Assembly: GCA_015068165.1 (NCBI GenBank)
Contig: SVKZ01000001.1
Location: 1 to 64,000, forward strand
DNA: 64,000 bases
Direction of reading: 5' to 3'
Source of the DNA: Oscillospiraceae bacterium
Lineage (GTDB): Bacteria > Bacillota > Clostridia > Oscillospirales > Oscillospiraceae
Made by a program: the position numbers and the translations under genes. Below are positions 21,284 to 60,175 of this stretch, piece after piece. Numbering within the stretch: position 1 is the stretch's first letter; every line of letters begins with the position of its first letter. The notes below the pieces were generated by a model that did no database searches, was not told where the DNA came from, and worked only from the letters and a program-made list of their open reading frames with translations.

Positions 21284-21289
21284 AACAAA

Positions 21290-21480
21290 AATCGCAGTGA
21301 TCGAAAAGAGTAGCGGAACGAAAGCCTTTCAGAGAGTGGGGTCGTCGGCTGAAAGCCCCTCAGGCATTTGTCCGGGAAAGTGCATTCGGGAGCGTTCATA
21401 GGTTTTGAGTAATAAATAAGAGTGGAACCGCGAGTTTTTAACCCGCCTCTTGTGCTATGGCACAGGAGGCGTTTTTATTG
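21290..21480 (+). ncRNA. T-box leader of cysS
   Basis: T-box core AGAGTGGAACCGCG at 21419-21432, terminator CGCCTC…GAGGCG-TTTTT at 21444-21476; candidate specifier TGC (Cys) around 21381-21383. Confidence 0.9.
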
Positions 21481-29598: not shown

Positions 29599-29630
29599 AA
29601 TAGGCATCGCAAAAGCGATGCCTATTTTTA
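29599..29630. terminator. Bidirectional terminator between ABC operon and aro operon
   Basis: aaataggcatcgc(aaaa)gcgatgcctatttt. Confidence 0.8.
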
Positions 29631-30059
29631 TGCGTATTTTTCTTTCAGATAAATAATGGCTTGCCGGTATCCGTCCAGTCCTTGACCCTTTATGGTTTTT
29701 TCGCAGTAAAGACCGGGGTAAGAGTGCTTACGGAATTCCTCTCTTGCGTCTACATCGGAAATATGCACCTCAACAGCCGGAATGGATACGGCTTTCAGGG
29801 CATCTAAAATAGCAACGGATGTATGGGTGTAAGCGGCTGGGTTGATTACAATACCGTCATATTTTCCATAGGCGGCTTGGATCATATCCACGATTGCGCC
29901 CTCGTGATTGGACTGAAATTGGGTAACAGAAATAGTAAGATTTTGCGCTGTTTCTTCAAGGAGCCACAAAAGATCTTGGAAGGTCTGCTTTCCGTAAACA
30001 CCCGGTTCCCGGATGCCAAGCATATTGATATTTGGTCCGTTGATTACAAGGATTTTCAT
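29628..30059 (-). CDS. aroQ: Type II 3-dehydroquinate dehydratase
   Basis: MKILVINGPNINMLGIREPGVYG…QSNHEGAIVD…INPAAYTHTSVAILDAL. Confidence 0.96.
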   Translation of the reverse strand: MKILVINGPNINMLGIREPGVYGKQTFQDLLWLLEETAQNLTISVTQFQSNHEGAIVDMIQAAYGKYDGIVINPAAYTHTSVAILDALKAVSIPAVEVHISDVDAREEFRKHSYPGLYCEKTIKGQGLDGYRQAIIYLKEKYA

Positions 30060-30060
30060 A

Positions 30061-31278
30061 TTACAAACCTCCAAGTATTCTTTCAGCAGTTTCTTCCTGT
30101 TGGGCATTGTTATCAACCGTCAGGTCGGCAAAGCTTTGATACAGCGGTGCGCGCTTATGATACATTTCTGTAAGATCATTGCTTTGCGAAAGGGGGCGTC
30201 CGTCAGTAGGAAGAGCGGATATGTCCCTTTTTAACCATATTATACGGCCGTTTTGGTGCAATATAGGGTAGTTTTCTTTTTTTGTTACACAACCGCCGCC
30301 TGTAGCAATCACAAGCCCTGAACCTTTGCAAATTTCGGAAAGCACAGATATTTCAATCGACCGGAATGCATTTTCTCCGCCCTTCGCAAAGATTTCCGGG
30401 ATGGAAATGCCGACCTTTTCCGTGATGGCGGCATCTGCGTCAATGAATTTCCGTCCGGTTATTTCGGCAAGCCGTTTTCCGACGGTAGATTTGCCGCAAC
30501 CGGGCATACCTATCAGGATAAGATTCTCCATCTGCAATTTCAGCAGTTGGTAAATGTGAGAAATCTTGTCGTCCGAAATTTTTGCGCCGGTGAACCACTC
30601 TGCACTTTCTTTTGCCTGCGCCACAAGCATCCACAGGCCGTTTTCAGCAATGAGACCTCTGCTTTCTGCTTCTAAAAGAAGCTTGGTGCGGGCAGGGTTG
30701 TAAATTAAGTCGATCACACCTTCTAACTTGGGGAACAGGGACAAATCAACGGGGGAAACGCCGTTATTGGGGTACATTCCCACAGGTGTTGCGTTCACAA
30801 TTACGGATGCGTCCTTGTGTAAATGGAGATTTTGGTAGTTATTCTCCCCGTTACGGGAGATAATCACCACATCTGCCTTTTGCTCATGCAAAACCGCCTC
30901 CACTGTTACAGACGCACCTCCACTACCGAGGACAAGTACCTTTTTTCCGGATACGGATAAGGTGCTTTTTTGCAATAAGGAGGCAAAGCCGAAATAGTCT
31001 GTGTTATGACCAATCAGCTTTCCGTCCTCTGTTTTTACTACGGTATTTACAGAGCCGAGACGCTGGGCCTGGGGAGATAGACTGTCGCAGTAGGAAACAG
31101 CGGCTTTTTTATAGGGAATGGTGATGTTGATGCCGTCAAAAGCCTTTTTAGTGAAGAAATCCTTCAAATCCTCTGGCTCAATCTCAAATAAACCGTATGG
31201 GTAAGTACCTAAATGGCTGTGAATTTGGGGAGAATAGCTGTGGGTCAAATGTCTGCCAAGCAAGCCGCAGTTCATCAT
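30061..31278 (-). CDS. aroE-aroK: Bifunctional shikimate dehydrogenase / shikimate kinase (AroE-AroK fusion)
   Basis: N-half GLLGRHLTHSYSPQIHSHLG…GSGGASVTVEAVL; C-half NLILIGMPGCGKSTVGKRLAEITGRKFIDADAAI…GGGCVT. Confidence 0.92.
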   Translation of the reverse strand: MMNCGLLGRHLTHSYSPQIHSHLGTYPYGLFEIEPEDLKDFFTKKAFDGINITIPYKKAAVSYCDSLSPQAQRLGSVNTVVKTEDGKLIGHNTDYFGFASLLQKSTLSVSGKKVLVLGSGGASVTVEAVLHEQKADVVIISRNGENNYQNLHLHKDASVIVNATPVGMYPNNGVSPVDLSLFPKLEGVIDLIYNPARTKLLLEAESRGLIAENGLWMLVAQAKESAEWFTGAKISDDKISHIYQLLKLQMENLILIGMPGCGKSTVGKRLAEITGRKFIDADAAITEKVGISIPEIFAKGGENAFRSIEISVLSEICKGSGLVIATGGGCVTKKENYPILHQNGRIIWLKRDISALPTDGRPLSQSNDLTEMYHKRAPLYQSFADLTVDNNAQQEETAERILGGL

Positions 31279-32417
31279 ACCACCTCAGTATAGCTTCCAA
31301 GATACTTAAACTCTTCACACAGACCGTCCAGCTCACAAATGAGCTGTACAAATTCCTGAGAGTAGACAGAAGTCTCCAAATCAAAATAGAACATAAATTC
31401 AAAATCCCGGTCAGGAATGGGACGGGATTCCAGCTTGATTACATTGATTCCAAGCACATACATTCTTGCCAGTATTCTGTAAAGCGAGCCGGGTTTATGG
31501 GGGAGGACCATCATAATGCTTGTTTTATCGGCGCCGGGGTAAATTTCAAGTTTTTTGCTGATACAGATAAAGCGGGTGTGATTATTGCCTTTATCCTGTA
31601 CACAGGCGGCTAAGCAGGTAAGACCGTACAGCGCTTCACAGCTTCTGCTGGACAGAGCCGCTACATCGTTACGGCCGGAGGAGGAGACTATATGGGCGGC
31701 CACAGCCGTGTTTTCCACCGGAATGATCTTGGCGTTGGGAAACTGCTTGAGAAATTCTGAACACTGATTGATTGCTTGCTCGTGGGAGTAGATTTCACGG
31801 ATGTCTTCCATCTTCGTACCGGGATTTGTCAGCAGATTATGGTCGATTTTCAGCCGGAAGGAACGAACAATGGAGAAATTATGATGGATCATCAGGTCAT
31901 AGACCTTTTTGACGGAGCCTGCAGTGGAGTTTTCAATGGGGAGAATGCCATATTGACACATCCCTTGCTCAATTGCGTTGAAAACACCCTCAAAATTCTT
32001 AAAATACATAATAAAGGGAGATTTGAACATCTTTTCACAGGCAATTTGGGAATACGCGCCTTCCACGCCCTGACAGGCCACCATAGGTGTCTGTGGGAAG
32101 AGCTTCGGCGTGTTATCAATGGAGGCGGCGATGTCGTTATTAAGTTGTGTCATATGGGAGGTTGTGCGGCTTTGGTAGCTACGGCTTAGTTCAAATAGCA
32201 TAGCATACAGCACACGGGTATACTGTTCCATACCTGCACCTGCTTTTTCTGCTACATCCTGGAGCTTTGCCCGCTCCCGACCGGGATCGAAGATGGGTAG
32301 TTTGTTCTCTTTTTTATACTCGCCGATTTTTTCGGCGACTTCCATTCGCTGGGCAAAAAGCTTTACAAGCTGATCGTCAATGGTGTCAATTTGTGTACGA
32401 AGTTCCTGAATATCCAT
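31275..32417 (-). CDS. pheA: Bifunctional chorismate mutase / prephenate dehydratase
   Basis: MDIQELRTQIDTIDDQLVKLFAQRMEVAEKIGEYKK (CM) + GVEGAYSQIA…, ACT domain (HKPGSLYRILARMYVLGINVIKLESRP). Confidence 0.94.
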   Translation of the reverse strand: MDIQELRTQIDTIDDQLVKLFAQRMEVAEKIGEYKKENKLPIFDPGRERAKLQDVAEKAGAGMEQYTRVLYAMLFELSRSYQSRTTSHMTQLNNDIAASIDNTPKLFPQTPMVACQGVEGAYSQIACEKMFKSPFIMYFKNFEGVFNAIEQGMCQYGILPIENSTAGSVKKVYDLMIHHNFSIVRSFRLKIDHNLLTNPGTKMEDIREIYSHEQAINQCSEFLKQFPNAKIIPVENTAVAAHIVSSSGRNDVAALSSRSCEALYGLTCLAACVQDKGNNHTRFICISKKLEIYPGADKTSIMMVLPHKPGSLYRILARMYVLGINVIKLESRPIPDRDFEFMFYFDLETSVYSQEFVQLICELDGLCEEFKYLGSYTEVV

Positions 32418-32427
32418 AATAGGCCTC

Positions 32428-33504
32428 CTAATGATTGGAAAGGTATGCGTCGAATATGGCGATTGCGGCCGCCGCTTCAATAACCGGCACGGCGCGGGGA
32501 ACAATGCAGGGATCGTGCCTGCCGTGAATGTTTAGCTCGCAGGTTTCCATTTTGGAAAGGGAAATGCTTTGCTGTGTTTTGAAGATCGTGGGAGTGGGCT
32601 TAATCGCCGCGGTGAATACAAGGGGCATACCGTTTGTGATACCGCCGAGAATACCGCCGGCATAGTTGGTCTTGGTAACCACTTTCCCATCTTTAATATC
32701 AAAAGCATCGTTATTTTGGCTTCCACGCAGATAACTGCTTGTAAAGCCTACACCAAAATCAAGGCCTTTCACAGCGGGAATGCCGTAGATCATTGCGGCA
32801 AGCCGGCTTTCCATACCGCCAAACATTGGATCGCCCCAGCCTGCAGGCAGGCCAGTAACAATACATTCAATGATACCGCCTACGCTGTCGCAATCGGCTT
32901 TTGCATCTGCGATCGCCTGTTGCATAGCGATACCGGCATCTTTATTCAGCACAGGGAAATCGTCCAGAACGCAAATTGGTGTCTGGCTGGTATAATCCGG
33001 GGAGATCGGCTCGTCCGCAATTCCTGCAAGGACGGAAATATGGGCGCGAATATGAATGCCCATAGCCTCCAGCCATTGTTTGCACAGACCGCCTGCGATA
33101 CAAAGGGGCGCAGTAAGTCTTCCGGAGAAATGACCTCCGCCTGCCACATCCTGAAAGCCCTTGTATTTTACCTGTGCGGTATAATCTGCGTGGCCGGGCC
33201 GGGGACAGTCTAAAAGTGCGGCATAATCGCCGGAGCGGGTATTGGTATTGCGGATTATGGCGGCAATCGGAGCGCCACAAGTGTAAGCGTTTACTACACC
33301 GGCGAGAAATTCGGGTGTATCCGCTTCCTTCCTGGTTGTGGTATACGCCTTGCCCCCGGGAGAACGGCGGGAAAGAAATGCCTGTAATTTAACTTCATCA
33401 ACAGGTAAGCCTGCAGGGATTCCATCCAATGTCATTCCGATGGCAGCACCGTGGGACTGACCGAAAATAGATAGTTTTAGATTTTCACCGTATGTGCTGC
33501 TCAT
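32428..33504 (-). CDS. aroC: Chorismate synthase
   Basis: FGQSHGAAIGMTLDGIPAGLPVD…RPGHADYT…GGHFSGRLTA. Confidence 0.96.
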   Translation of the reverse strand: MSSTYGENLKLSIFGQSHGAAIGMTLDGIPAGLPVDEVKLQAFLSRRSPGGKAYTTTRKEADTPEFLAGVVNAYTCGAPIAAIIRNTNTRSGDYAALLDCPRPGHADYTAQVKYKGFQDVAGGGHFSGRLTAPLCIAGGLCKQWLEAMGIHIRAHISVLAGIADEPISPDYTSQTPICVLDDFPVLNKDAGIAMQQAIADAKADCDSVGGIIECIVTGLPAGWGDPMFGGMESRLAAMIYGIPAVKGLDFGVGFTSSYLRGSQNNDAFDIKDGKVVTKTNYAGGILGGITNGMPLVFTAAIKPTPTIFKTQQSISLSKMETCELNIHGRHDPCIVPRAVPVIEAAAAIAIFDAYLSNH

Positions 33505-34678
33505 AGCTACCTCCTAAGGATTTATATACCTCCCAAAAAGCGGGATAGGATTTTGAAACACACTGGGCGCCAAGAATGGTAACAGGACCGTCAGCGATTG
33601 TGGCCGCAATGGCGGCAGACATGGCAATTCGGTGGTCGTTTTGACTGTTTATCGTGCAGCCGTAAAATTTCCCGGGAAATACAATAAGTGTATTCTCGTT
33701 TGCCACTGCTTCGATCCCAAATGCATTCAGCATTGCAATGGTGGATGCAACTCGATCGGATTCTTTCAGCCGCAGGCGTGTAATATCCGAGAATTCGCCG
33801 CCACTACCTGCTGCTGCAACGATACTGAGAATGGGAACAAGGTCAGGAATGTCGGAAGCGGAGATGTTTATCGGCTGTTTTGTAGATAAAATATCCTGAC
33901 AGATCCGGTCGCCTTGGGGGGAATCTTCCTTAAGCCCTTGAATATTAATTACATTCCCCAATGCGTTAGCGGCGAGAAAGAATGCGCCGTTGCTCCAATC
34001 GCCTTCGACAGTAAGCGTACCCGGGCTTTTCAGGGGAAGAGAGGGGGAAACGGTGCTTGCGTCAATTTTTCCGCCAAATGCTAAAATTGCCTGACGTGTC
34101 ATTTCAATATAGGGTTTTGATTCGATTTTACCTGTAATATTAAGCGTACAAGGCGCATCCAAAAGAATGAGCGCAAACAGTAGACCTGTGATAAACTGAC
34201 TGGATACATTTCCGGCCATGCTGTACGAACCGGGCCTCAGTTTGCCGGTACAAAGTAGAGTGTTTTGGCTTGATCTTGTGATGGAGCATCCCATCCGTTC
34301 CATTTCTTCCTGCAAAGGCGAAAGGGGCCGATTAGGTAGCCGACCTGCCATTTGAAATGTGGCTTCCACGCCCAAAGCACCGGCAATCGGCAGTAAAAAG
34401 CGAAGGGTAGAACCACTTTCCCGGCAATTAAGGGTGGCTTTTTTCGGAATTTGCTTTGCCGGGAAAATATAGTAGCCTGATTCCATTCTGCTGATCTTTG
34501 CGCCCAATGCATTCAGACAGTCTACAGTTGCGGAAATATCTTCGTTTGTTTCCGGGCATAGAATTTCCGTGGCTTTGTTTGCAAAGGCGGCGCATATTAA
34601 AAGCCGGTGGGCTTGGGATTTGGAGGGGATGATTTGTACAGTACCGGTTAGCTTTGCCGGGTAGATGGTAATATCCAT
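33485..34678 (-). CDS. aroA: 3-phosphoshikimate 1-carboxyvinyltransferase (EPSP synthase)
   Basis: IIPSKSQAHRLLICAA…RESGSTLRFLLPIAGALG…RLKESDRV…DHRIAMS. Confidence 0.95.
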   Translation of the reverse strand: MDITIYPAKLTGTVQIIPSKSQAHRLLICAAFANKATEILCPETNEDISATVDCLNALGAKISRMESGYYIFPAKQIPKKATLNCRESGSTLRFLLPIAGALGVEATFQMAGRLPNRPLSPLQEEMERMGCSITRSSQNTLLCTGKLRPGSYSMAGNVSSQFITGLLFALILLDAPCTLNITGKIESKPYIEMTRQAILAFGGKIDASTVSPSLPLKSPGTLTVEGDWSNGAFFLAANALGNVINIQGLKEDSPQGDRICQDILSTKQPINISASDIPDLVPILSIVAAAGSGGEFSDITRLRLKESDRVASTIAMLNAFGIEAVANENTLIVFPGKFYGCTINSQNDHRIAMSAAIAATIADGPVTILGAQCVSKSYPAFWEVYKSLGGSYEQHIR

Positions 34679-34679
34679 A

Positions 34680-35732
34680 TTAAAGTCCTGCTTCAAAAAA
34701 GGATTTTAGTTCTCCAACTGGAATGGGATGAAGCGCACATTTGCCAATTTTTCGGGGTAGAACAAGGTTAATAGTTCCACCGAAACGCTTCTTATCGGAA
34801 AGTGCGTTTTCTGCAAGTAAATCAGCGGAGAGGGAAGTACTGCAGGGAAGCGTAAATCGGTTCAAGACACCTATAATATCATCATAGATTGTTGACACAC
34901 AGAAACCGTTACTTGCGCTGGCTTTTGCAATGACAGCTATGCCGATCGCTACCGCCTTGCCGTGAGAAAGAGAGTAATTACTGCATTTTTCAATGCTGTG
35001 TCCGACGGTATGACCTAAATTCAGCATTTGCCGGGCACCGGTATCAAATTCGTCCTCCATCACCACATCCCGCTTAAGCTCAATACAGCGGGTGATGACA
35101 TATTCCCGGTCAAATTGCAGTCCAAAGGTTTGCAAATGGGAAAAGAGCTGGGCGTCATACAAAATGCCGTATTTAATAACCTCTGCACAGCCATCGGTAA
35201 AAATGTCCTCCGGTAAGGAGTTTAATGCAGAAATATCGCAAAGCACCATTGCCGGTTGATTGAATGCACCTACAAGGTTTTTGCCGGCAGGCAGGTCAAT
35301 GGCGGTTTTTCCGCCCACAGAGGAGTCCACCATTGCAAGTAGAGAGGTGGGAACTTGAATATAGGGAACGCCCCGCAGGTAGGTTGCGGCTGCGAAGCCG
35401 GTGATGTCTCCGACCACGCCTCCACCCAGAGCAATCAACAAATCGCCGCGGGTAATGCTGTTTTCTGCAAGGAAATTAAGGATACGGATATATTGCTCGC
35501 TGTTCTTGCTTTCCTCGCCGGCGGGCAGGACATAATGAACAAAATCATATCCTCTGTCTTTCAGGGATGCGCAAACGGTGTTGCCATAGATCGGCCAAAC
35601 ATTGCTGTCGCTGACAATAGCGATTGTGTAACTCGATTTAACCTGGGGTATATAGTCTCCAATGTTAGCAAGGAGTTCTGTTCCTACATAGATCGGGTAG
35701 CTTCTGGAAGCATTTACGGTGATGGTTTTCAT
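34680..35732 (-). CDS. aroB: 3-dehydroquinate synthase
   Basis: LPAGEESKNSEQY…ALGGGVVGDITGFAAATYLRGVPYIQVPTSLLAMVDSSVGGKTAID. Confidence 0.96.
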   Translation of the reverse strand: MKTITVNASRSYPIYVGTELLANIGDYIPQVKSSYTIAIVSDSNVWPIYGNTVCASLKDRGYDFVHYVLPAGEESKNSEQYIRILNFLAENSITRGDLLIALGGGVVGDITGFAAATYLRGVPYIQVPTSLLAMVDSSVGGKTAIDLPAGKNLVGAFNQPAMVLCDISALNSLPEDIFTDGCAEVIKYGILYDAQLFSHLQTFGLQFDREYVITRCIELKRDVVMEDEFDTGARQMLNLGHTVGHSIEKCSNYSLSHGKAVAIGIAVIAKASASNGFCVSTIYDDIIGVLNRFTLPCSTSLSADLLAENALSDKKRFGGTINLVLPRKIGKCALHPIPVGELKSFFEAGL

Positions 35733-36559
35733 CCGTCAACCTCCTCTTTGCGTCTGCGCCCCTCGTCAAGAAGGGCGATAAGGCCGGCTTCGTCCTTATT
35801 ATCAAGGGCTTTGCGGTATTTGCAAAGATTTTCAATATAAACATCAAGCTCATACAGAACATTTTCCCTGTTGGATAGGAAAAGCTCTGCCCACATATTG
35901 GGATTTAGCCAGGCAACACGGGTCAAATCCTTGTAGCTACCGGCTGAAAAGCCTTTGTGCTTAAGGGCGGTAGGGGATTTAATATAGGCGTTGCTGACAA
36001 TGTGGGGCATTTGGGAGGTAAATGCAATCATAATATCGTGCTCCTTTGCGGTTGTAACAGAAAAAGAACCAAAGTTACAAGGGGAAAGGGCTTCCTTTAC
36101 CCGGGATAGCAGCTCCGGGTCGTCATAGACGGGGGGAACAAGAACCATAGGTGCACCTTGAAACAGGTTGGAGCGGCTGTACTTAAAACCGGAGAAGTGA
36201 GAGCCGGCCATCGGGTGTCCACCGACGAAGGTAAAGCCGTATTTTTGGGCAACAGGGAAGCACCGGGCACAGATTTGCTCTTTAATGCCACAACAGTCAA
36301 TAACAAGGGCGTTTTTGCCGATAAGCCTGCCTTTTTCCTCTAACCAAGTAGCAGAGCCGTCTGCATAAATCGCAAGGAGAATCAGGTCGCAGGAGGGGAT
36401 GTTCTCCTCTGTCAGAGGTGCGCTGACGGCTCCTGCGAGTATAGCAAAATCCAAGGTAGAGGCAGATTGCTCCTGTGCCAAAACGGTATGCCCGGCTTTT
36501 GCATATGCACGGGCGAGAGAACCGCCGATAAGACCCAGTCCAAGAATGCCTACATTCAT
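35729..36559 (-). CDS. tyrA: Prephenate dehydrogenase
   Basis: VGILGLGLIGGSLARAYAKAGHTV…GGHPMAGSHFSGFKYS; in aro operon. Confidence 0.92.
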   Translation of the reverse strand: MNVGILGLGLIGGSLARAYAKAGHTVLAQEQSASTLDFAILAGAVSAPLTEENIPSCDLILLAIYADGSATWLEEKGRLIGKNALVIDCCGIKEQICARCFPVAQKYGFTFVGGHPMAGSHFSGFKYSRSNLFQGAPMVLVPPVYDDPELLSRVKEALSPCNFGSFSVTTAKEHDIMIAFTSQMPHIVSNAYIKSPTALKHKGFSAGSYKDLTRVAWLNPNMWAELFLSNRENVLYELDVYIENLCKYRKALDNKDEAGLIALLDEGRRRKEEVDG

Positions 36560-37557
36560 ACAATAACCTCGCGGATACGGCGCACGCGGCGGTTAACCTC
36601 GTCGAACTGTGCGGGGGTCAGGGATTGGGCACCGTCGCAGAATGCACAGGAAGGGTTGTTATGCACCTCCACCATAATACCGTCTGCACCGGCCGCCGCG
36701 GCGGCCGCGGCCATAGAGGGGACAAGTGCGGAACGGCCTGTGGCGTGGCTGGGGTCAACTACGACCGGTAGATGGGTCAGATCGTGAAGTACAGGTACTG
36801 CCGAAAGATCCAAGGTGTTGCGTGTGCAGGTCTCATAAGTGCGGATACCGCGCTCGCAGAGAATGATATTTTCATTGCCCTCGCTCATAATATATTCAGC
36901 ACTCATAAGAAGCTCTTGGATGGTGTTGGCAAGACCCCGTTTCAGCAGAATGGGCTTATTTGTCTTTCCTAATTCTTGAAGGAGGTCAAAGTTTTGCATA
37001 TTTCTTGCGCCAACCTGGATGATATCCACATCGTTAAACAGATCCAAAGAACGAATATTCATAATCTCTGTGATGATAGGAAGACCGGTTGCCTTTTTTG
37101 CCTCCAAGAGCAAGCGGATACCCTCATCCTTCAAACCCTGAAAAGCATAGGGGGAGGTTCTGGGCTTAAATGCGCCGCCGCGGAGAATGTCCGCACCGGA
37201 TTCCTTAACGGCGGTGGCAACCTCAATAATCTGGTCCATAGATTCCACAGAGCAAGGGCCGGCGATCATAGCAAAATGACCGCCGCCAATGCGTACATTG
37301 CCAACCTCAACGACGGTATCATTGGGGTGGAATTTTCGGTTGGCCTGCTTAAACGGTTCAGACACGCGTTTAACACTTGAGACAATCTCCAGGCTGTTGA
37401 GAAGCTCTATATCCACCCGGCTGGTATCGCCAATAAGGCCAAGAACGGTAATTTCTTTACCTTCCGAGATATGAACATCAATATTCATATTTTTCAGCCA
37501 GTTAACAAGATGCTCAGTTTGCTGAGGGGTTGTTCCGTGTTTGAGTACTGCGATCAT
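36556..37557 (-). CDS. aroF: 3-deoxy-7-phosphoheptulonate synthase (AroG/DAHP synthase I-beta type)
   Basis: N-terminal regulatory-like domain; MIAGPCSVESMDQI…LRGGAFKPRTSPYAFQGL…DPSHATGRS. Confidence 0.95.
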   Translation of the reverse strand: MIAVLKHGTTPQQTEHLVNWLKNMNIDVHISEGKEITVLGLIGDTSRVDIELLNSLEIVSSVKRVSEPFKQANRKFHPNDTVVEVGNVRIGGGHFAMIAGPCSVESMDQIIEVATAVKESGADILRGGAFKPRTSPYAFQGLKDEGIRLLLEAKKATGLPIITEIMNIRSLDLFNDVDIIQVGARNMQNFDLLQELGKTNKPILLKRGLANTIQELLMSAEYIMSEGNENIILCERGIRTYETCTRNTLDLSAVPVLHDLTHLPVVVDPSHATGRSALVPSMAAAAAAAGADGIMVEVHNNPSCAFCDGAQSLTPAQFDEVNRRVRRIREVIV

Positions 37558-37570
37558 AAAATCATCTCCT

Positions 37571-37604
37571 AAAAAATTAACTGCACAGATGTGAGTCTGT
37601 GCAG
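37571..37604 (-). terminator. Attenuator terminator of the aro operon
   Basis: Minus strand CTGCACAGA(CTCACA)TCTGTGCAG-TTAATTTTTT. Confidence 0.85.
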
Positions 37605-37653
37605 CGCATAAAGTAAATGGAATACTTATAAATCCGTGCAACACAAAACTCTA

Positions 37654-37719
37654 TTACTTTTTCATAAAAAAGTAATAGTAGTTAAAGTAAAAGTAAGTTG
37701 CAGCGAATAATGTTGTCAT
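37654..37719 (-). CDS. Phe/Tyr-rich leader peptide of the aro operon (21 aa)
   Basis: MTTLFAATYFYFNYYYFFMKK*; SD AGGAGG upstream of ATG 37719; 9 of 10 consecutive residues (9-18) are Tyr/Phe. Not in ORF track. Confidence 0.85.
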   Translation of the reverse strand: MTTLFAATYFYFNYYYFFMKK

Positions 37720-37748
37720 CGGGATTCCTCCTGATTAAATTTTGAATA

Positions 37749-37777
37749 AGTATATCACCGTTGCTTGAATTATGCAA
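37749..37777 (-). promoter_or_regulatory. Promoter of the aro operon leader
   Basis: Minus strand TTGCAT – 17 nt – TATACT. Confidence 0.65.
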
Positions 37778-37823: not shown

Positions 37824-38705
37824 TTACCTTAATTTTCGGCAATCCGTAAGTGCCTGTTCCAGATCGCGGGGATGAGACCAGCGTTTAGCCGGTGTGGGCG
37901 CGCAGGCTTGCATAGTTACTGTGGATAGTTCCTTGTCCACACTGTCCGGTAGCTTTTTAATACTTTCCGGCTGCTTACCACCGGTCAGTAATTGATAAAG
38001 TAGGACACCTACACTGTAAACATCTGTATTATTGCTGATGACCGAAAAGAGGTCCTGACATTCCGGGGGTGCATATATAGTACTATATCTCTTTGGAAGC
38101 GTTGCATAGGGAAGAGATGAGATAGGAACAAAACCAACATCTCCAATCTGAAATTCACCTTTTGCGGAAAGAAAGATATTCTGCGGTTTTAGTCCGACAT
38201 ATATAAAACCGGCCTCTCGGCATTGCGTTAGACCGCGGCAAAGATGGATACCTAATTCAATGATGTCTTCCCGGCTTAGTTTGACCTTATTTAATATTGT
38301 GTACAAACTCCGTTTATAGGGGGAGAGAAGCCATACATCATACCCCAAATCGTTTTTAGGTTCCGTTTGGCAGGCTGAAAAGTGTGAAAAGTACTCTGTG
38401 TGGGAAAGGGCGTTCAGAATTGCCGCTTGCTTACAAAGTTCCCGCGCCTGCTCTCTGTAATAAGCATTTACTTTTTCGATATTCGGAAACGCGCCGGATA
38501 GCAGAAAAGCTTCTGTAGTGCTTGGTTTTGCAGGAAAAGAATGAACCTTTGCTATATAACGGTTGCCGTTTTCCCGATCTGTTGCCGGATAACACCGAAC
38601 GCCATCCTTTACGGTAAGCACATCTCCCAGAGTGTACTGCAGGGCGAAGTTTGATTTTGACGAATATGACAAAATAGTTGCCTCCTTTTCAGTCGTGTTT
38701 TTCAT
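37824..38705 (-). CDS. Protein-kinase-fold protein, predicted pseudokinase
   Basis: Kinase-like layout (YIAKV, GLKPQNIFL, IGDVGFV, YAPPE, TDVYSVGVLLYQLLTG) but HRD replaced by YVG. Confidence 0.75.
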   Translation of the reverse strand: MKNTTEKEATILSYSSKSNFALQYTLGDVLTVKDGVRCYPATDRENGNRYIAKVHSFPAKPSTTEAFLLSGAFPNIEKVNAYYREQARELCKQAAILNALSHTEYFSHFSACQTEPKNDLGYDVWLLSPYKRSLYTILNKVKLSREDIIELGIHLCRGLTQCREAGFIYVGLKPQNIFLSAKGEFQIGDVGFVPISSLPYATLPKRYSTIYAPPECQDLFSVISNNTDVYSVGVLLYQLLTGGKQPESIKKLPDSVDKELSTVTMQACAPTPAKRWSHPRDLEQALTDCRKLR

Positions 38706-56461: not shown

Positions 56462-57457
56462 TTATCGCAGAATTGCACCAAGTTCCTTCTGCAGGGCATC
56501 AAGGACGCAGGTAACAACCTTTTCAGAATCGGCATCTGTGAGAGTGCGATCATCTGCACGAAGAGAGAGGGAGAATGCCATACTCTTTTTCCCTTCAGGG
56601 ATGTTAGCACCTCGGTAAATGTCAAAAAGGGCAATGCTCCGCAGTAGTTTCCCTGCAGCCTTTTCCATAACAGCTTCTGCTTGGGCAACAGTGATGGCAT
56701 CATCGCAAATAATGGCCAGGTCTCTTGTAACAGTGGGGAATTTGGGCAGAGGCGTATAGGTGGGTTCAGGAAGCTTGAGATCCATCAGGGCCTCCATATT
56801 AACTTCTGCGCAGTAAACCGGGCAGCCCATATCGTAGTTTTCTGCGACTAAGGGATGGATTTGACCAATATAACCTACTGCAATACCGTCAATGGTAATT
56901 TCCGCACAGCGACCGGGATGGTAGCTGGGATTATCCTTGACAGCAGTGTAAGAAGCCTTTTTAACGCGCAGAGCGGAGAAAATGCCCTCCAGTTCACCTT
57001 TTACGGAGAAGAAATCTGCGTTCTGACCGTAACTGCCGAGTACAAGGATCTTCGGCTCGTTGGGCTGAAGCTGACCTGCTACCGGAAGATAGATTTTGGC
57101 AAGTTCATAAAGCTTAACATCCTTGTTGCGGTATGCCATATTCCGGGAGAGAATGTCAAGCATAGAGGGCAGTGCTGTGGTACGCATTACAGAGGTGTCC
57201 TCGCCGAGGGGATTCTGGATACGCATCGGATTACGCAGAGCACTATTCTCAGGAAGCCGGATGCGGTCGAAAATCTCGGGCGAAACGAAGGAATAGGTGA
57301 TGATTTCGTTGTAACCGAGGGCACGGCAGGCGTTGCCGCAGGCACTTTCAAAGAGCATTTTGGGGGAATAGCCGCCCTTTGCCGCCATTTTCAGCTGGGT
57401 GGTGGGGATTTCGTTATAGCCGAAGGAACGGCCAACCTCTTCCGCAATGTCAGCCAT
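56462..57457 (-). pseudogene. pheT: Phenylalanine--tRNA ligase beta subunit, C-terminal part (separated by frameshift)
   Basis: MADIAEEVGRSFGYNEIPTTQ… to the anticodon-binding FDX-ACB domain; continues the 57457-58845 ORF in the -1 frame. Confidence 0.85.
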
Positions 57458-58845
57458 CAGATTAAGGTCAGGACGCAGGAGGGTACCTGAATATCATCTC
57501 CGTCCACAGGCACTTCCAGCAAAGCAAGGTATTTTACCATATCTTCCCGGGAAATATCTGTACCAAGTAGCGCATTGATTTTCTCAGGCTCAAGCTTGAC
57601 GGTTTTAGGGGCGGGAACGTAGTTGATGATGTCAACCATACCGTCCATTACATCACCGCAACCGAGGAGCTCTACAAGCTCACAGGCGCGCTCTACAGCA
57701 GGAACGGTCATCATCGGGTCGATGTTCTTTTCAAATTTACCGGAGGCGTCGGTTCGCATACCCAGCGCTAAGGCGGTTTTGCGGATAGAAGTGCCGTCAA
57801 AGTTTGCAGATTCAAATACGACAGTTACGGTATCGTCAACGATCTCTGAATTTTCACCACCCATAATGCCGGCAAGACCGATGGGACGGTTTTCATCTGC
57901 AATGACAAGCATACCGGCATTCAAGGAACGCACATTGCCGTCCAGAGTTGTCAGGGTTTCGCCCTCTTCTGCCTCGCGAACAATGATCTTACCGGAGTTG
58001 ACGTACCGGTAATCAAAGGCGTGCATCGGCTGACCATACTCAAGCATAATATAGTTGGTAATATCGACTATGTTATTGATAGGACGCACGCCGTTGGCAC
58101 GGAGGCGCTGACGCATCCACTTGGGGGAAGGACCGATCTTTACATTGGTTACCATTCTTGCGGTATAGCGATTGCACAGCGCTTCTGCTGGTACTTCAAT
58201 GTCCAGCATATCGTACATAGAGCCAGCATTGCTACCGTTTACCGCAGGGGTGTGATGCTTCATGGGCAGACCGAAAGCAGCAGCGGATTCCCGGGCCAGA
58301 CCGATGATAGAGTAGCAGTCGGGACGGTTGTTGGTAATCTCAAAATCAACCACAGTATCGTCATTTCCAATGACGGTATTGATATCATCGCCGGGCTTGC
58401 AATCTTCCTCAATAATCCAAATACCGTCCTCGATGGCATAGGGGAAATCACCAAGGGTAAGATTCAGCTCTTTCAGAGAGCAAAGCATACCGCAGGAAAC
58501 CTCGCCGCGGAGTTTGCCTTTTGTGATATGGATGCCGCCGGGCAGATAGGAGTTGTGCAAGGCGGCGGGAACAAGATCGCCTTCCTTCACATTTTGCGCG
58601 CCGGTAACGATCTGCACAGGCTCGTCCTTACCCACATCTACCTGACAGACCCACATATGATCAGAATTTTCGTGGCGAACAATGGACAGGATTTTACCCA
58701 CAACCACATTGCGGATTTCGCTGTCCAGCCGCTCGTATGTCTCGACCTTCTGGCCGAAAACGGTAAGTGTATCTACAAATTCTTTATCAGAAATGTGAGA
58801 CAGGTCAACAAATTCTTCGTTGATCCATTTTCTGTTAATCTTCAT
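57457..58845 (-). pseudogene. pheT: Phenylalanine--tRNA ligase beta subunit, N-terminal part (truncated by frameshift)
   Basis: MKINRKWINEEFVDLSHISDKEFVDTLT…IVTGAQNV…NRPDCYS…; ends DIQVPSCVLTLI* where VPS(F)RPDLNLMADIAEEV is expected. Confidence 0.88.
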
Positions 58846-59924: not shown

Positions 59925-60175
59925 AAAAACACCTTCATCCCGGTTCGGGACGAAGGATAACCTCCGCGGTACCACCCGCAATTCGCCGTATGGCGCAGCT
60001 CATCGGTGCAAACACACCTGCGATTTTTAACGGAATCACCCGACGCACCCTACTGAAAGTTCAGGTGAGCAACTCGTGGGGGAAAGCCCGTTGCTGCACG
60101 TAAGCGGTTTCCACCATCCCGCTCTCTCTATGATTACGCAAACCAGCAAAAGACAACCCAGTCAATGCATTTATC
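59925..60175 (-). ncRNA. T-box leader of pheST
   Basis: Minus strand T-box core GCGGGTGGTACCGCGG (59964-59979) and terminator CCTTCGTCCCG(aa)CCGGGATGAAGG-TGTTTTTT (59925-59955); candidate TTC (Phe) specifier at 60055-60057. Confidence 0.88.

Follow-up and report, generated by a model that had tools for sequence, protein, structure and literature searches.

A probable ribosome-mediated attenuator with a Phe/Tyr-rich leader peptide upstream of the aro operon of an Oscillospiraceae bacterium and its relatives among Clostridia

The leader of the aro operon in the 64,000-nucleotide stretch of Oscillospiraceae DNA analysed here (hereafter the window) is very probably a classical ribosome-mediated transcription attenuator. 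The basis observed in this study consists of the leader open reading frame (ORF), its conservation, the co-occurrence of a terminator, conserved and mutually exclusive RNA pairings, and the gene content of the operon; from these we infer leader translation, ribosome stalling, ribosome-polymerase coupling and Phe/Tyr-dependent readthrough. Control of amino-acid operons in Firmicutes is usually attributed to T-boxes, TRAP or repressors; to our knowledge the sensing of Phe and Tyr by ribosome stalling has rarely been reported for this phylum.

A minus-strand control region of about 200 nt separates a kinase-like ORF (37824-38705) from the aroF start codon (ATG at 37557). The promoter, the AGGAGG sequence, the leader ORF and the terminator placed here by the original prediction were all found by direct reading, and the elements of the region are as follows.

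37749..37777, minus strand: promoter TTGCAT-N17-TATACT, read directly; a similar box is conserved in the genus
37727..37732, minus strand: Shine-Dalgarno (SD) sequence AGGAGG of the leader ORF, read directly; close relatives carry an SD match of 4-6 nt
37654..37719, minus strand: leader ORF MTTLFAATYFYFNYYYFFMKK*, 21 codons from ATG 37719; the SD frame alone is F/Y-rich
37696..37703, minus strand: distal part of segment 1, CTGCAACT, can pair with segment 2; GCTGCACAG in many relatives
37668..37678, minus strand: proximal part of segment 1, CTATTACTTTT, composed of Tyr/Phe codons; 5' arm of the 1:2 hairpin
37651..37661, minus strand: AAAAGTAATAG, Lys codons plus the tandem stops; 3' arm of the 1:2 hairpin
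37638..37647, minus strand: segment 2, TTTGTGTTGC, 5' arm of the antiterminator; TTTGTGCTGC in most relatives
37596..37605, minus strand: segment 3, GCTGCACAGA, common to antiterminator and terminator
37580..37589, minus strand: segment 4, TCTGTGCAGT, 3' arm of the terminator
37571..37576, minus strand: U-tract of the intrinsic terminator, TTTTTT, read directly and found by pattern scan

Residues 9-18 of the leader peptide are YFYFNYYYFF, carrying both F and Y; a Trp codon is absent, and the ORF ends with two tandem in-frame stops, TAA TAG. The predicted promoter is present, with TTGCAT at 37777-37772 and TATACT at 37754-37749 separated by a 17-nt spacer, and a TTGCA(A/T)-N17-TATAAT-like promoter is kept at the equivalent position across the genus set, but the -35 box agrees with the consensus at just 3 of 6 positions and was not called by the pattern scan. 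The terminator GCTGCACAGA/TCTGTGCAGT (37605-37580) was independently detected by that scan, and downstream of its TTTTTT follow AGGAG and the aroF start codon. The ORF that immediately precedes the aro promoter, also on the minus strand, was classified by Pfam/NCBIfam as protein-kinase-like.

Eight consecutive genes with overlapping ends follow the leader, and the identities proposed for them, from aroF to aroQ, were confirmed by Pfam/NCBIfam.

36556..37557, minus strand: aroF, DAHP synthase of the B. subtilis type (TIGR01361, PF00793, PF18152)
35729..36559, minus strand: tyrA, prephenate dehydrogenase
34680..35732, minus strand: aroB
33485..34696, minus strand: aroA, EPSP synthase
32428..33504, minus strand: aroC
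31275..32504, minus strand: pheA, chorismate mutase-prephenate dehydratase
30061..31278, minus strand: aroE-aroK fusion
29628..30116, minus strand: aroQ, type II dehydroquinase

In this order (aroF-tyrA-aroB-aroA-aroC-pheA-aroEK-aroQ) the operon covers the pathway from DAHP to prephenate and then the Phe and Tyr branches, and trp genes are absent from it. Because no match to trpE was obtained in any of 37 genomes of the genus (the positive control matched in 14 of 14 known genomes), nor to trpD in any of the 13 genomes tested, the aro operon appears to supply Phe and Tyr but not Trp, and judging from gene content the genus seems auxotrophic for Trp yet retains the full Phe/Tyr operon. The source genome is 1.39 Mb in 64 contigs and 92.5% complete; its closest named relatives are metagenome-assembled genomes labelled Oscillospiraceae or Clostridia bacterium, many of them of animal-gut origin. 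The sequence thus holds an SD-preceded ORF with codons for the end products, a terminator between this leader and the first gene, and an operon that makes the amino acids presumed to be sensed.

The original prediction expected Y/F-rich, SD-preceded leader ORFs in front of aroF in related genomes, and such leaders were indeed found. We collected the 400-nt regions upstream of AroF homologues from whole-genome relatives and from a GTDB contig collection, and reduced them to a non-redundant set of 187 regions, mostly from Clostridia. To count as a leader, an ORF had to follow an SD sequence, be 6-60 codons long and contain 6 or more F/Y in 10 residues; such an ORF was detected in 128 of the 187 regions, some of which are mutually related so that the counts do not represent independent events. 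All 38 regions with AroF identity of at least 75% carry a leader, as do about half of those with 40-60% identity and 11 of 28 in a phylum-wide draw. Of the 128 leader regions, 101 have a terminator in the interval from the leader stop to aroF, as against 8 of 640 shuffled sequences. Within the genus the order of F and Y and the N-terminus vary while the aromatic content is retained, which fits the expectation for codon-based sensing; the F/Y codons cluster at -13 to -5 from the leader stop. Searching the genome for further copies of the Y/F pattern gave a single exact match, the aro leader itself; all other matches had 3 mismatches, the totals being 3 forward and 7 reverse, compared with 8 forward and 4 reverse when the reversed pattern was used as a control. 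A search for His operon leaders gave nothing clear within 1.5 kb upstream of the hisG loci of the genus, in which another gene may stand first in the operon. Five distant Bacillota regions (L187, L200, L201, L205 and L242) share a longer F/Y/W leader peptide with a FYFSAGYLFCKK-like end, apparently representing, by sequence, a second leader type before aroF.

Since the leader is T-rich, its ORF could in principle be a product of chance in T/A-rich DNA, with the terminator being either constitutive or that of the upstream gene; a terminator-like hairpin is also present within the last 200 nt of 17 of the 59 regions in which no leader was detected. Against this reading, the leader definition was satisfied by 0.3% of 1870 dinucleotide shuffles and by 1 of 187 reverse complements, and among close relatives the SD frame was F/Y-rich in 37 of 37 cases and frames +1 and +2 in none (0/37). 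An F/Y-rich, SD-preceded frame is thus conserved in relatives, contrary to what a chance ORF predicts, and we give this explanation practically no credence.

Folding of the minus-strand leader, a check proposed with the original prediction, gave -46.1 kcal/mol compared with -28.9 +/- 3.8 for shuffled sequences (z -4.5), none of 200 shuffles being as stable. For analysis of the individual helices, 38 genus-level leader sequences were aligned. The terminator, predicted as pairing of segments 3 and 4, is conserved in the genus with two-sided changes at 7 of its 10 pairs. For the pairing of segments 1 and 2 the outcome was divided: the proposed TGCAAC:GTTGCA pairing exists, and distal segment 1, which is similar to segment 3 and often reads GCTGCACAG, is able to pair with segment 2, but in the window this distal pairing does not exceed the shuffled level (z -0.27), and its mean z over the 38 sequences is -1.2. 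The strongest pairing is instead a genus-conserved hairpin that had not been named, CTATTACTTTT:AAAAGTAATAG, in which 99.8% of the alignment cells are paired and an A-U pair is replaced by C-G through a compensatory double change in L031 and L045, in addition to several G-U changes. In this Y/F-codon hairpin, a segment 1 overlapping the control codons pairs with the region of segment 2. For the 1:2 hairpin and the terminator together, 40 double-changed cells were counted against 12.9 +/- 4.5 in shuffled alignments, and pairing was 95% against 36-55% in slid controls. The predicted antiterminator 2:3, TTTGTGCTGC:GCyGCACrrA, is also conserved in the genus and shares segment 3 with the terminator, so that the two are mutually exclusive; 85.8% of its cells are paired, with weaker statistical support than for the other helices and with one conserved mismatch. 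At this mismatch (alignment columns 110/160) no pairing is possible in 38 of 38 sequences (U.C in 28 and U.U in 10), and the neighbouring positions are nearly invariant; the fixed mismatch possibly keeps 2:3 weaker than the terminator. Segment 2 starts 6 nt past the leader stop in 36 of the 38 sequences.

With these elements the switch would operate as follows. RNA polymerase would initiate a few bases past the -10 box, near 37742, and a ribosome loading at AGGAGG would translate the leader. With sufficient charged Phe- and Tyr-tRNA, the ribosome would reach the stop codon, 6 nt before segment 2, where its footprint would occupy part of this segment; after its departure, segments 1 and 2 could pair. 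With segment 2 either occupied or paired, the 3:4 terminator would form and transcription would stop before aroF. When Phe or Tyr is short, the ribosome would stall within YFYFNYYYFF and cover segment 1, leaving segment 2 free for segment 3 and allowing readthrough into the eight-gene Phe/Tyr operon. The originally proposed 1:2, 2:3 and 3:4 logic is supported in so far as its predictions at the sequence level were borne out, and regulation by Phe/Tyr would follow from it.

In order to model the ribosome, the 3' edge of its footprint was placed 15 nt downstream of the first P-site base, and the RNA was folded as it stands before segment 4 is made. The probability of the 2:3 pairing, averaged over the 38 sequences, was 0.95 with the ribosome in the middle of the F/Y run, 0.93 when it stood on the last F/Y codon and 0.25 once it had reached the stop; ribosome-free RNA, on average an intermediate state, gave 0.42. 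The corresponding values for the window, in this order, were 0.96, 0.96, 0.00 and 0.13. The F/Y codons lie within the permissive stretch, as do the other codons before the stop in this folding model. By a broader measure, in which segment 3 is paired with anything upstream, the value fell from stalled to stop from 0.82 to 0.42 over the set and from 0.88 to 0.63 in the window. For the E. coli pheL leader, used as a yardstick, the value was 0.84 at the majority of Phe codons, dropped to 0.64 at the final one and reached 0.00 at the stop; the on/off pattern is similar, but the aro leaders are less sharp than pheL by this measure. At equilibrium the full leader favoured the terminator in every ribosome state (mean probability 0.97), indicating that antitermination must be kinetic. 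Classical attenuators are generally held to switch kinetically. The folding model supports the decision of hairpin choice by ribosome position kinetically, but not at equilibrium.

The same terminator output would be obtained if the leader were a TnaC-like arrest peptide, with free Phe/Tyr sensed in the exit tunnel, and the C-terminal FYFSAGYLFCKK-like stretch shared by the distant leaders L187, L200 and L201 could be taken in this sense. In the genus, however, the N-terminus and F/Y order show free variation, and pairing of AAAAAG with the Tyr/Phe codons accounts for the conservation of the Lys-Lys end; sensing by starved codons needs no conserved peptide. The Trp codons of leaders also speak for charged tRNA. 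In an exploratory, post hoc test of 68 Clostridia genomes with a leader, at a looser cut-off of 5 F/Y in 10, a leader Trp codon was present in 14 of 25 genomes with trpD and in 5 of 43 without (p 1.6e-4); when one genome was taken per family, the median p was 0.003, a procedure that corrects for descent only partly. In this sequence comparison, leader Trp codons thus seem to occur predominantly in genomes that have trpD, in agreement with a sensing of charged tRNA, and the link provides a simple evolutionary test of codon-based sensing. An arrest peptide is on these grounds very improbable.

Another possibility is that a T-box, a riboswitch or a TRAP-like protein-binding leader runs the terminator, the ORF being incidental. 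T-box control of aroF is feasible, since T-boxes were identified upstream of aroF homologues in L165, L168 and L253, and the window itself carries a T-box before pheST. No Rfam covariance model (T-box, Phe_leader or riboswitch) matched over the aro leader, and neither the window leader nor the other leaders tested matched such families at E 0.1; L171 gave one unrelated snoRNA-model match, below its gathering score. Moreover, the SD, the frame and the F/Y content are conserved, all needless without translation. A sensor of this kind is rated slightly less probable still than an arrest peptide, and codon-based attenuation remains the preferred reading.

The further regulatory elements matched by Rfam in the window are listed below.

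59943-60174, minus strand: T-box before pheST, 82.9 bits, E 2e-16, under the gathering score of 93
21288-21453, plus strand: T-box before cysS, E 4e-13, under the gathering score
4223-4314, plus strand: AdoCbl-II riboswitch-like match, weak (29.1 bits; gathering score 36.5)

The pheST T-box claimed earlier is backed by its core, GGGTGGTACCGCGG, and by its E value, but its score stays below the gathering score. The T-box matches at pheST and cysS, together with the T-boxes before aroF homologues elsewhere, indicate that both strategies coexist. The pheT gene (56462-58845, minus strand) is split into two frames, corresponding to TIGR00472 positions 1-442 and 454-798; since pheT is in a single full-length frame in 29 genomes of the genus, the split should be a local frameshift or an assembly error.

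Among known systems, the aro leader resembles the gammaproteobacterial pheL-pheA attenuator (Phe_leader), exemplified by E. coli, in its short Phe-rich ORF, alternative hairpins, terminator and downstream Phe gene, but differs in carrying both Phe and Tyr codons, in preceding the common pathway from aroF and in its Bacillota host. The uORFC-13-1 motif, for which attenuation was proposed, is similar in having a promoter, a ribosome-binding site, a Phe-encoding uORF and a terminator before aroF of Acholeplasma (PMC8632094). As described there, it comprises 24 sequences, all of them either from Acholeplasma or environmental and unassigned, with at least one Phe and no Y/F run mentioned in the description; the aro leader is set apart from it by this published description rather than by alignment. 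A screen of five genomes including Clostridium novyi yielded two candidate uORFs that likewise encode Phe and Tyr ahead of shikimate genes (PMC6429828, Fig. 6b); its main text gives no organism for them, and overlap with the clostridial aro leaders is possible. Leader-peptide attenuation in Bacillota has also been described for His in the Bacillus cereus group, Peptostreptococcaceae and Erysipelotrichales (PMC2965389, PMC9413887) and for the Leu-rich ilv leader of Staphylococcus aureus (PMC5794164), with other amino acids and operons and in narrow taxa. The earlier statement that Proteobacteria are the main known source of such leaders therefore had to be softened in view of these Bacillota His and Leu attenuators, the Acholeplasma Phe uORF and the two F/Y uORFs of the five-genome screen (PMC2965389, PMC9413887, PMC5794164, PMC8632094, PMC6429828). 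T-box leaders of amino-acid and aminoacyl-tRNA synthetase genes share the input, uncharged tRNA, and often the terminator output, but unlike the aro leader they read the tRNA directly by RNA, with no ORF. A literature search found no description of the clostridial aro leaders in the searchable literature, most subscription papers, preprints and supplements lying outside it, and nothing on Faecalibacterium leaders. The mechanism itself is already known, and its breadth across Clostridia seems to be unreported in that literature.

The recurrence of the same leader design across Clostridia and beyond suggests that this group probably senses Phe/Tyr by ribosome stalling. Whether the leaders form an old and widespread Bacillota attenuator class, providing a common form of control of aroF in Clostridia with F/Y or F/Y/W codons according to Trp synthesis and exchanging with T-boxes, we consider an evenly balanced question. 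The roughly 130 natural leader variants are offered for study, and they point to small genes beyond the coverage of Rfam. In B. subtilis, transcription and translation are uncoupled (PMC7858274), so that attenuation as a routine mechanism would imply that Clostridia are organised differently. If the proposal is true, ribosome and polymerase must stay near enough to each other in these Clostridia, unlike in B. subtilis, to permit attenuation, and a conserved leader-peptide attenuator preceding the central aromatic operon of many gut Clostridia would make control that depends on coupling a routine matter in them.
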